Source: Actinomycetota bacterium (GTDB lineage: Bacteria; Actinomycetota; Acidimicrobiia; IMCC26256; PALSA-610). From it: a stretch of DNA of 64,000 nt. Of the stretch, positions 24,455 through 32,399 are shown piece by piece (within the stretch, counting starts at the first letter, position 1; each line of letters starts with the position of its first letter). The notes under the pieces are model-generated. The model was not told the DNA's origin, did not search any database, and worked only from the letters and a program-made list of their open reading frames with translations. The stretch lies in contig PLBO01000135.1 in the NCBI GenBank assembly GCA_003134555.1, positions 62,001-126,000 of the forward strand. The letters run 5' to 3'. The translations under genes and the position numbers were made by a program.

Positions 24455-24644
24455 CATCGCGAGTGGTGCCGTGAATGGTGCCGTGTTCTTCGGTTCTGCA
24501 CGGGAGTAGGTGGGACTCGACGTCCCGAATGTCGCGCGAACAGCCTCGTCAGCGGTACTGGACCGGACCAACCGGGAGCGGAAGGGAGCCCAGTTCGCGG
24601 GCAGATAACCCGAAGGTCGCAGGCTCAAGCCCTGCACCCGCGCC
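24455..24644 (+). repeat. Direct repeat copy A, with degenerate tRNA 3' end (att-like)
   Basis: This stretch is an imperfect copy of 32155-32348. Both contain the pair TGGTGCCGTGAATGGTGCCG, then a GGGACT-GACGTC block and a GTCGCGCGAA block. Both end in the 3' half of a tRNA (here 24598-24644: anticodon arm, then AACCCGAAGGTC, T arm and acceptor-like CACCCGCGCC). In copy A the conserved U33 and the T-loop TTC are altered, so it is not a functional tRNA. This is what successive integrations at a tRNA 3' end leave behind. Confidence 0.65.
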
Positions 24645-24772
24645 GGCCCTTTCACTTCTCGCCCGAACAGTGCCGAAACGGTCCATCTCGCGGGACGTGT
24701 CGTGACGGCCTGGCGCGCAAGTTGGGGATCGCGCACCGAGTGCCGGCGAGTACGGCGGCCTACTCTTGGGCA

Positions 24773-26056
24773 GTGGCACAGCGTATTCGTGAGATCACAA
24801 AACTCGCAGACTTCGGTAACCGCTGCGCGTACTGCCGCGGGCGACTCGACGACCAACTCTGGGAGGAAGAGCACTGGCACGCTCGAGCCGCGGGTGGTTC
24901 AGATTGGCAAGAGACGCCGCCCAGCTGCGCAAGATGCAACCGAGCAAAGGGGAAGCATGCACCGCGCGTCGTCGATCCGCACACGGGTCAAACCGTGCGC
25001 TTCTTTAATCCCTTGCAGGACAACTGGAACGAGCACTTTCTCGCACGCAATGGTTTGATATTCGGGAAGTCGGCGGTCGGCCGCGCCAGCGCATCGATTC
25101 TCTTCCAGCCCATGCCAGCGCTTGCCCCGAATCTTGACACGCCGATTCACTTTCACTTTGCAATGAGCGAGCGTCTCGCTGTGCTGACTGCCGCGCTGAT
25201 GCAGCGCCACGACGCGGTCAACTACCGGGCCGCACGACATGCGCTCAATGAATTCAATCTGGCGATCGCAACACTTGATCCGACGGAGCGCGAGGTCGCC
25301 GTCTTCATAGGGCAGTGGGCTCGGGCGCAGATGCGATTCCGTGCTGGAAGCGCGCCAAACGTTCGGCAGAACCTACGCGAAGGGATCGCTAACTTGCGTC
25401 GCGGCGATCTGTCGGCTGTTGGCCGCGACGCCGAGCTGTTTCGCCACGAATGGGTCGCGATGTCGGCGATCCAGGCGGCGACGCTTGGGCGTTTATGGAA
25501 CAACCGCGAAATGGAGCGACGTGCACGCACCCTCGCCACGCGCGTTTATAGCGATCTCGCCACGCACCCTCTTCTCGGGTCAAGCCACTTCCTCTGGCGC
25601 GCTCTGGTGCACAAGGGCGAACTCGCCGCGGTCGACCTCCCTGCACTAGACGCCTACATCGATGATGTTGCCGAGGCTGAGCAAGCCAACACCTTCGTCC
25701 TGCTGGGAGAGATGTCGGAGGCCGTCGCCAAGTCGGAGTCGCAGGTTGGCGTCATCGAGTCTGCCTTTGCTCTTGTCGACAAGACCATGGAAACTGCCGG
25801 CTACGCCGCGGGTGGCGACCGCGCGGAGTCGGTGACACTGCGCCGCCGAGGGTGGCTCCTTCAGCTCCGGCTCGAGCTCCCAATCGATGCTCGCCTCCTT
25901 CGGAACGATCTCTCCTACTGGACGAATCTAGGGCTCACTAACGAGGTACGAACCCTCTACGCCGATCTCCGGAGGTGGCGCTACGACGTCGCGCAACTCG
26001 AAATGGATCTTGATCGCAAGACGCTCGGGACGTCGCTCGGTCCATTGGCAGCATAG
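24773..26056 (+). CDS. HNH endonuclease domain protein
   Basis: A 427-residue protein if started at GTG 24773. The open frame extends back to 24323, but those residues are read through the att-like repeat, so the upstream start is rejected. Residues about 15-70 are an HNH nuclease with zinc-binding CxxC pairs: NRCAYCRGRLDD, then WEEEHWHARAAGGSDW (EHWHARAAGG is the HNH core), then PPSCARCNRAKG. The remaining 350 residues are helical (DPTEREVAVFIGQWARAQMR; long alternating helices), perhaps TPR-like. It may be a restriction-type or defence nuclease; no modification partner is present. Confidence 0.7.
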   Translation: MAQRIREITKLADFGNRCAYCRGRLDDQLWEEEHWHARAAGGSDWQETPPSCARCNRAKGKHAPRVVDPHTGQTVRFFNPLQDNWNEHFLARNGLIFGKSAVGRASASILFQPMPALAPNLDTPIHFHFAMSERLAVLTAALMQRHDAVNYRAARHALNEFNLAIATLDPTEREVAVFIGQWARAQMRFRAGSAPNVRQNLREGIANLRRGDLSAVGRDAELFRHEWVAMSAIQAATLGRLWNNREMERRARTLATRVYSDLATHPLLGSSHFLWRALVHKGELAAVDLPALDAYIDDVAEAEQANTFVLLGEMSEAVAKSESQVGVIESAFALVDKTMETAGYAAGGDRAESVTLRRRGWLLQLRLELPIDARLLRNDLSYWTNLGLTNEVRTLYADLRRWRYDVAQLEMDLDRKTLGTSLGPLAA

Positions 26057-26094
26057 AGCAGCGCGGGTGCGCTTACGCGCAGGCTGCTTCTATC

Positions 26095-26877
26095 ATGAGC
26101 GAAGCGGGTCGCGATATCGCAGTGATAGTCCCGACGCATGGTCGTCTCGACCTAACGAGCGCGCTCGTCGCGGACTGTCAGCGCGAACCGACCGTTGCTG
26201 ACGTGATAATTGTTGACAACAAGCGAGACCATCAAGCCCTTAGCCGCCAAGTGCGTGTCGTAAGTCCGTCCGAACCGCTGGGTTGGTTGCGTTCATGCAA
26301 CCTTGGAATCGAAGTCGCATCTACGCAGCGATACCGCGCGTATGTCTTGCTGAACAATGACACGCGATTGTCTCAGCAGTTCTTTGAGGGTTTGCTTGTC
26401 GCATCGGCCGATACAGGTGCAGCTCTGATCGGCCCCATGTATGATGACTACTGGCCGACACAGATAGGGCCCTTCGTCGGGCGAGCTCTCGACTATGGGG
26501 CGGTTAGAGCGCACCGTGACGCCCCGCTCGTAGACGGGACCTGCATGTTCATCGATGCCGGCCTATATTCTGAAATCGGTGGCCTCGACGACCGATTTCA
26601 CAAGTGTGGGTACGGCGCGGACTACGACTACGCGATTCGAACACGACAAGCAGGCCGTCGCATCTGTATCACCGAGATGTCGTACCTGAATCATCTTCGG
26701 CACGGCACTGCCTCGGCGGTGCTGCCGGCAGAGTGGCAGGCCGAGGCAACGACGATTCAAAACGAGGTGTTCGAGTCCAAGTGGGGCGCACGGCTGTGTG
26801 AGACGCGACCGGAGGACAAGGATGTTGTACTTCGAGAGGTCGCCCGACTCGGCGCGGCAACTGAGACGCGGTCGTGA
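26095..26877 (+). CDS. Family 2 glycosyltransferase
   Basis: A 260-residue GT-A fold glycosyltransferase. The N-terminus has IAVIVPTHGRLDLTSALVAD and the VADVIIVDNKRD strand; the metal-binding DxD equivalent is YVLLNNDTRLSQQFFEGLL; and a GGLDDRFHKCGYGADYDYAI segment corresponds to the acceptor-site ED motif of rhamnosyl-type transferases. It would transfer a sugar from a nucleotide-sugar to a surface polymer or glycan. It lies 38 bases after the HNH gene and 130 before the Avs-like gene and does not fit either functionally, so it is probably cargo of the same island. Confidence 0.75.
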   Translation: MSEAGRDIAVIVPTHGRLDLTSALVADCQREPTVADVIIVDNKRDHQALSRQVRVVSPSEPLGWLRSCNLGIEVASTQRYRAYVLLNNDTRLSQQFFEGLLVASADTGAALIGPMYDDYWPTQIGPFVGRALDYGAVRAHRDAPLVDGTCMFIDAGLYSEIGGLDDRFHKCGYGADYDYAIRTRQAGRRICITEMSYLNHLRHGTASAVLPAEWQAEATTIQNEVFESKWGARLCETRPEDKDVVLREVARLGAATETRS

Positions 26878-31939: not shown

Positions 31940-32154
31940 CCTCGTCGCGACCAGAGTGCCGACCATTTCTGAGGTGCACGGATTTGACGCCTCTCGAGCC
32001 GCGTCGCGCGCGCTACCACGGCGGCCGAGTACGCGGCGCGCAATGCGGCCATCTCGCGTTGGCGTCCGACAGACGGACGTGGGTATCGACCGCAGACGAA
32101 CGTGATGTTTGTGACTGCGCGTGACACCTGAGGCGCCCGGTGCACGCGCGGTTC

Positions 32155-32348
32155 TGCATCGCGCATGGTGCCGTGAATGGTGCCGTGCGTCGCCGGACTG
32201 GGCGGGACAGGACGGGAGTGGACGTCACGAACGTCGCGCGAATCGCCTCGTCATCCGTGCTGCACGGGAACAGACGGGACTGGAGGTCACGTGACTTGGC
32301 CGGCTCATAACCCGAAGGTCGTAGGTTCAAATCCTACCCCCGCCACCA
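32155..32348 (+). repeat. Direct repeat copy B ending in partial tRNA-Met
   Basis: This is the better-preserved copy of the repeat at 24455-24644. It ends with 32301-32348, the 3' half of a tRNA with a CAT anticodon loop (CTCATAA), an intact variable loop, a T arm with GTTCAAATC and an acceptor strand CCCCCGCCACCA including CCA. Upstream bases do not form the D arm or 5' acceptor strand, so it is not a complete gene. Weaker echoes (AACCCGAAGGTCA) occur at 32490 and 32617. I read it as the right-hand attachment site of an element that integrated in a tRNA-Met gene located outside the window. Confidence 0.7.
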
Positions 32349-32364
32349 ACTGAAATCGCAGGTC

Positions 32365-32399
32365 AGAGCCGGTGTGCGCGCACCGGCTCTGTGCGTTTT
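32365..32399 (+). terminator. Rho-independent terminator of the tRNA remnant
   Basis: A 10-bp stem (AGAGCCGGTG with CACCGGCTCT), six-base loop, then a GTGCGTTTT tail. It sits directly after the tRNA-Met 3' end, as expected for the tRNA transcript. A similar hairpin follows the other remnant at 41498. Confidence 0.7.

Follow-up and report, generated by a model that had tools for sequence, protein, structure and literature searches.

An Avs2 gene between tRNA-Met attachment-site remnants, probably stacked by repeated site-specific integration in an Acidimicrobiia genome

Islands that integrate into tRNA genes carry the 3' part of the gene in their attP; after integration the gene is whole again and its former 3' end lies displaced, and a subsite centred on the anticodon is common (PMC4383910). 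The Islander survey reported in that paper required an integrase in every island and recorded four tandems of at least three islands among 2168 genomes. In Dehalococcoides, many islands stand head to tail behind one RNA gene, ssrA (tmRNA), each bounded by a displaced 3' end; the crossover lies in the T loop, the enzyme is a serine recombinase and the cargo is rdhA, while 15 islands have no integration module and led the authors to propose cis-mobilizable elements (CIMEs) and accretion (PMC3146451). CIMEs and the tandem accretion of integrative and conjugative elements (ICEs) and integrative and mobilizable elements (IMEs) likewise give units with attL and attR but no integration genes, in tandem at a tRNA 3' end (PMC5704250). 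Here we describe a related locus in the draft genome (154 contigs) of an Actinomycetota bacterium. Within a stretch of 64,000 nucleotides (the window; C6:62001-126000 on a contig of 188,379 bases), a gene for the STAND NTPase Avs2 lies with an HNH endonuclease-like gene and a possible glycosyltransferase gene between two repeats that are remnants of attachment sites in tRNA-Met.

The Avs2 gene probably came to its place in a stack through repeated site-specific integration, because the scars on its flanks match a tRNA-Met gene with a nearby integrase elsewhere in the genome. The process would be the tandem accretion of integrase-less, CIME-like units and comes closest to the Dehalococcoides ssrA islands; it is a known one, here unusually tidy and spread across a little-studied bacterial order. 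What differs is the target gene, the recombinase class and the cargo: in contrast to the ssrA islands, the arrays use tRNA-Met with a core in the anticodon loop and a tyrosine integrase, and they carry Avs2, toxin-antitoxin-like and STAND/cyclase genes. Unlike the CIMEs described, some units are single genes; no transfer genes were seen among the selected open reading frames (ORFs) in Pfam and PADLOC scans, which included no specific search for conjugation genes. Islander-type islands share with our locus a tRNA gene followed by a displaced 3' fragment in the same orientation, a tyrosine integrase and the anticodon-centred subsite. The intact gene and the same-orientation fragment are both present here (if contigs C79 and C6, which hold them, belong to one replicon, as we infer), but an integrase in each island is not. 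Since an integrase is demanded of each island in the Islander method (PMC4383910), arrays like these would be missed. The locus supplies unit borders for an Avs2 carrier and suggests that tRNA-Met is an integration hotspot which tools of this kind would skip; in this order, such cargo can readily be searched for by way of the displaced tRNA-Met 3' halves. By title or abstract opening, we found no publication on tRNA-Met arrays in Acidimicrobi-, and we do not claim that none is in print.

Junction anatomy in the window

An earlier note on this DNA, made from the sequence alone, had described two imperfect repeats of about 190 bases, and a repeat search of the window bears it out: 24449-24641 and 32151-32343 are 193 nt each, 73% identical without gaps and 7702 apart, and as a DNA query against their own genome the pair gives an E value of 2.9e-27. 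Both share one layout, namely GCATCGCG, the site pair TGGTGCC-N4-ATGGTGCC, about 100 nt with ACGGGA-like repeats, and tRNA-Met from the anticodon loop onward. With at most one mismatch, and on both strands, the site pair occurs across the whole of C6 only at window positions 24464, 32166 and 32419. The motif AACCCGAAGGTC(A/G) lies on the plus strand at 24607, 32309, 32492 and 32626; allowing up to two mismatches, there are five matches in the window against 1.04 expected, a number reached by none of 100 shuffles. A scan with ARAGORN gave no complete tRNA for the window.

The second repeat belongs to a complete P-core-P' junction (32151-32505), which is what two elements abutting head to tail should produce. 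On the plus strand, like every feature of both junctions, it comprises a left arm, P (32151-32303, site pair at 32166-32184), the 3' half of an elongator tRNA-Met from the anticodon loop to CCA (32304-32348), a hairpin with which the right arm P' begins (32365-32390), the right-arm copy of the arm-type site pair (32419-32437) and a third GGTGCC site abutting the half core AACCCGAAGGTCA (32480-32504). The first repeat (24449-24641, arm-type site pair at 24464-24482) is P-core only. The tRNA half is perfect through CCA, which ends at 32348, in the second repeat and decayed in the first, where the T loop and the acceptor strand are altered; the proposal that both repeats end in a tRNA 3' half is thus sound for one and applies to the other only in mutated form.

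The same note had placed further echoes of the motif at 32490 and 32617. They exist a few bases away, at 32492-32504 and 32626-32638, but neither is a remnant of the same kind as the repeats. Echo 1, the half core abutting the GGTGCC site, is present in all seven aligned right arms and is part of the right arm of an integrase, because a third GGTGCC site with echo 1 also stands between tRNA-Met and integrase on contig C79. Echo 2 (32617-32638, plus strand) falls within an extension present in three of the seven, common to G003:C293 and G001:C212. Separately, a stretch of 64-76 nt at 41498-41573 resembles the tRNA-Met-adjacent hairpin of several genomes and has neither core nor arms.

The intact tRNA-Met, its integrase and related genomes

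The genome has two intact tRNA-Met genes, both outside the window. One, on the minus strand of C79 at 39550-39626, stands beside a tyrosine integrase gene and its helix-turn-helix partner; a complete tRNA-Met and an integrase were what the earlier note had advised looking for beyond the window. The order is helix-turn-helix gene, integrase, third GGTGCC site with echo 1, site pair, hairpin, tRNA-Met. The integrase (395 residues; PF00589, E 2.4e-25) is directly downstream of the tRNA gene and convergent with it, and its best matches in Pfam are Phage_integrase and Phage_int_SAM_3. Its partner (HTH_17, E 6.4e-12) is by position a candidate excisionase. Named matches to the integrase come from Acidimicrobiales/Acidimicrobiia drafts at 64-67% identity, with distant ones in other phyla, and by these matches the order to which the window belongs is probably Acidimicrobiales; none was found in IMG/VR. 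The second intact tRNA-Met, at about 1683-1761 of C6 (L005) and some 60 kb left of the window, has variant stem bases and is possibly element-borne.

Each of the four genomes of the genus (G000, G001, G002 and G003) has the right arm next to an intact tRNA-Met. The tRNA-Met contigs of the last three, in drafts 74-88% complete, yielded no integrase, so that only the genome studied here has one there. Both G001:C212 and G003:C146 contain the full P-core-P' junction, at 83% identity over 363 bases and 81% over 355 bases respectively, and the right arm at the G003 tRNA-Met is 84% identical to window 32302-32637. As the coding gene OsmC is 78-80% identical between the present genome, G001 and G003, the non-coding junctions at 81-83% are at least as conserved as coding DNA. 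Upstream of the C79 tRNA-Met stand genes that match the ones preceding tRNA-Met in G003:C293 and G002:C297, and the three are therefore the same tRNA locus.

Across the order, the 3' half pattern occurs in 43 of 58 genomes and an intact tRNA-Met in 38. The pattern has 87 sites; once the 40 intact genes, two of which match none of these sites, are set aside, 49 displaced halves are left. They are spread over 20 of the 58 genomes, and seven of these have at least two. This count omits G058-G060, which belong to other orders, and sites with more than two mismatches, including window 24604; it includes G041:C11:1 and G056:C527:20, which begin at contig ends and cannot be judged. Wherever a contig has at least two sites, all lie on one strand (15 of 15 contigs, one of them, in G058, outside the order; chance 2^-26). 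Among 36 integrase loci inspected, nine have a tRNA-Met core nearby, seven of them distinct and two duplicates; in all seven, integrase and core converge, and 108-190 bases separate the integrase from the tRNA 3' end. The remaining loci are near a Leu, Pro, Arg, Ala, Cys, Gly or another CAT tRNA, or near none. More distant integrase relatives (L079-L102) lie near tRNA-Leu, Pro, Ala, Arg, Cys and Gly genes, and target choice has probably switched within the family, given the variety of tRNA genes that these relatives adjoin. ORFs running antisense through tRNA-Met 3' halves encode WWRGxDLNxRPSGYE (L054 3098-3340, L055 880-1452, L050 9484-10023, L066 4155-4754); they are likely a source of spurious protein annotations as well as a handle for remnants.

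A relative without the repeats, of the kind by which the earlier note proposed to check its claim, is G016, from another family of the order. The sole tRNA-Met 3' half found in it is that of the intact gene, and a THAP4-like gene stands tail to tail with this tRNA-Met, about 90 bases away or less. In the window, the homologue (33366-33941, minus strand) is found some 1 kb beyond the last remnant on the right, with the right arm and the OsmC gene in between. We suggest that this gene is probably the old chromosomal neighbour at the right edge of the array, which fits its homologue's place beside the tRNA-Met of G016.

Integrases are missing from most units. Among the 26 complete units between neighbouring cores in the examined contigs, 20, of 0.8 to 14.3 kb, have none by tblastn and six carry one; the panel of 11 integrase sequences, in which L074 was read on the wrong strand, may miss distant integrases. 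In G056, one large ORF fills five of seven complete units, three of these ORFs encoding cyclase-NB-ARC proteins and a fourth a hydrolase coupled to a cyclase domain; in G001 a similar cyclase-AAA protein lies between tRNA-Met and junction. PADLOC gives the cyclase-NB-ARC/AAA proteins weak PycC matches. By eye, from ORF translations, a unit in G055 has a toxin-antitoxin-like pair and one in G045 a Fic-like protein. The window unit carries the HNH (PtuB-like) gene, the possible glycosyltransferase gene and Avs2. One G041 unit contains an integrase fragment only. Units without integrase stand directly behind the intact tRNA-Met in G001, G055, G045 and G028. The loci in which cyclase-NB-ARC/AAA proteins recur as single-gene cargo of integrase-less units are L053, L054 and L049.

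Origin of the array

We are confident that the repeats are junctions from a succession of site-specific integrations whose target was one elongator tRNA-Met gene, and the repeated integration at a single tRNA gene that had been proposed gains support from the tRNA-Met, the integrase and the relatives. In the mechanism that we suggest, a C79-type tyrosine integrase would recombine two partners, the core in the anticodon loop of tRNA-Met and an attP on a circle, made up of left arm, core, tRNA 3' half and right arm. With every insertion a whole tRNA would be restored at the left end, and the older 3' half and all that follows it would shift to the right; because the rebuilt tRNA would be used repeatedly, units would stack head to tail. 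The HNH-glycosyltransferase-Avs2 interval would then be one CIME-like unit without an integrase of its own. Its right junction is complete and its left junction is decayed and has no recognisable right arm; on this scheme, the former would be an attP-like junction and the latter the decayed right end of the neighbouring unit. The window junctions would have been made by this integrase.

Several observations weigh against this account. Because the tRNA-Met (C79) and the array (C6) are on separate contigs, the continuity of one array from C79 to C6 is presumed. The variant tRNA-Met on C6 was rejected as the origin of the array, as no arm adjoins it. With tblastn and the integrase panel, neither the window nor the 24.6-32.3 kb unit shows an integrase or integrase remnant. 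No right arm was found 3' of 24641: of four query arms aligned locally there, three score like shuffles, with 167, 157, 1 and 103 of 500 dinucleotide shuffles at or above the score, and in view of these counts we do not claim a right arm near 24670, where a degenerate site pair picked by eye had been a candidate. The matching right border in G003 consists of the left arm, a partial right arm and then the toxin-antitoxin piece of window 34056-34334, and its core is gone. Finally, the remnant-free neighbourhood is known from one genome, G016; the G004 locus of the THAP4-like homologue has no tRNA, and in G045 the homologue is on another contig than tRNA-Met.

Other origins for the repeats themselves are far less probable. 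Tandem duplication by homologous recombination could fit the recurring cyclase-NB-ARC genes in G056 units. However, neighbouring units hold unrelated genes (GMC oxidoreductase, hydrolase, LuxR-type, Fic-like, toxin-antitoxin-like, Avs2), and the similarity, which begins at the anticodon loop, extends to the integrase-linked tRNA-Met sites; we regard this reading as very improbable. Slighter still is the probability of a chance match or mis-assembly. The genomes are drafts and some repeats lie at contig ends (for example G041:C11:1 and G056:C527:20), but chance is excluded by the shuffles (0 of 100), the E value and the confinement of the site pair to junctions in C6, and mis-assembly is opposed by junctions with unique flanks inside contigs of many genomes, including G028, a single contig of 2.46 Mb.

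If the repeats are integration junctions, as we suggest, the manner in which the Avs2 unit came to be without an integrase would have two possible histories. The units may be decayed integrase-bearing islands (phages, ICEs or IMEs) that were integrated serially, lost their integrases later and no longer move, which is the CIME scheme of PMC5704250. To this we give about an even chance: the six integrase-bearing units stand beside integrase-less ones, and decay is favoured by the degraded window left junction, which has no right arm, and by the G041 unit that retains an integrase fragment alone. Several integrase-less G056 units, however, are a single gene between junctions with no integrase remnant found, and the junctions in the genus are conserved like coding DNA; single-gene units and conserved junctions favour movement. 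An integron is an array of short units, each ended by a recombination site; its single tyrosine recombinase is encoded next to the entry point, and its attC sites recombine as folded single strands. In an integron-like system, small cassettes that each finish with a tRNA-Met 3' half would enter at the intact tRNA-Met, captured and rearranged by one tRNA-Met-specific integrase acting in trans. The head-to-tail G056 arrays with their single-gene units of 1.3-4.2 kb, the 20 integrase-less units, those lying right behind an intact tRNA-Met in four genomes, and the three same-genus genomes that have the right arm and no integrase on the tRNA contig are all consistent with this. Yet neither movement nor a rearranged cassette order has been seen, G056 has no tRNA-Met-linked integrase among the matches listed, right arms are unrecognisable in G056-type units, and drafts may conceal integrases. 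The sites also differ from attC, being tRNA 3' halves with arm-type repeats, and the integrase is of phage type by Pfam and stands beside a tRNA with a helix-turn-helix partner, as in islands. We consider such a system doubtful, and equally so its order-wide form, in which a tRNA-Met-specific integrase, often acting in trans, would insert small integrase-less cassettes of one or a few genes (Avs2, cyclase-STAND, toxin-antitoxin) with 3' half and arm sites, and these would make ordered arrays with the newest beside the rebuilt tRNA; loss of the integrase after arrival is the more likely history. If units do move in trans, integrons would not be the only route for collecting single defence or toxin-antitoxin genes; tRNA-Met arrays would be the second.

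Genes of the unit and its flanks

The repeats had also been offered as natural borders of the defence cargo. They delimit one unit of a longer array and not the entire cargo, because defence-like genes run on left of 24449, and the left border is a decayed half junction. The unit opens with the HNH endonuclease-like gene (24746-26056, plus strand), which is PtuB-like in PADLOC (E 1.3e-8 on a longer ORF) and matches HNH_5 at E 1.7e-4, under the curated cut-off. The possible family 2 glycosyltransferase gene follows at 26095-26877 (plus strand; E 0.0028, likewise under the curated cut-off). Avs2 (27010-31359, plus strand) matches its PADLOC profile over most of its length, at positions 3-1305 of 1504 (E 9.8e-271), and a C-terminal part in another frame (31115-31939, plus strand) covers profile positions 1353-1469 (E 3.6e-8). 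The change of frame near the C-terminus, at 31081-31939, may be a frameshift, a split gene or a sequencing error. With a 499-residue piece of Avs2 (residues 301-799) as the query, Avs2 is present in one of the 21 nearest genomes, its own.

To the right of the unit, the OsmC-like gene (32862-33290, plus strand) is located elsewhere in the same-genus genomes. The THAP4-like gene next to it is a putative heme-binding protein gene (E 4e-4, under the cut-off). A 292-residue ORF at 33363-34241 was rejected as a single gene, its N-terminal part being antisense to a ribbon-helix-helix/PemK pair, and the segment 33366-33941 was retained. That toxin-antitoxin pair, at 34014-34576 on the right edge of the array, has relatives in G003:C10 and beside an array unit in G056:C207. 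To the left of the first repeat, a further defence-like block at 16299-24231 encodes DUF5677/DitA-like, DUF4062 and Schlafen AlbA_2 proteins, a 992-residue PDC-M54A-like protein and a HEAT-like protein.

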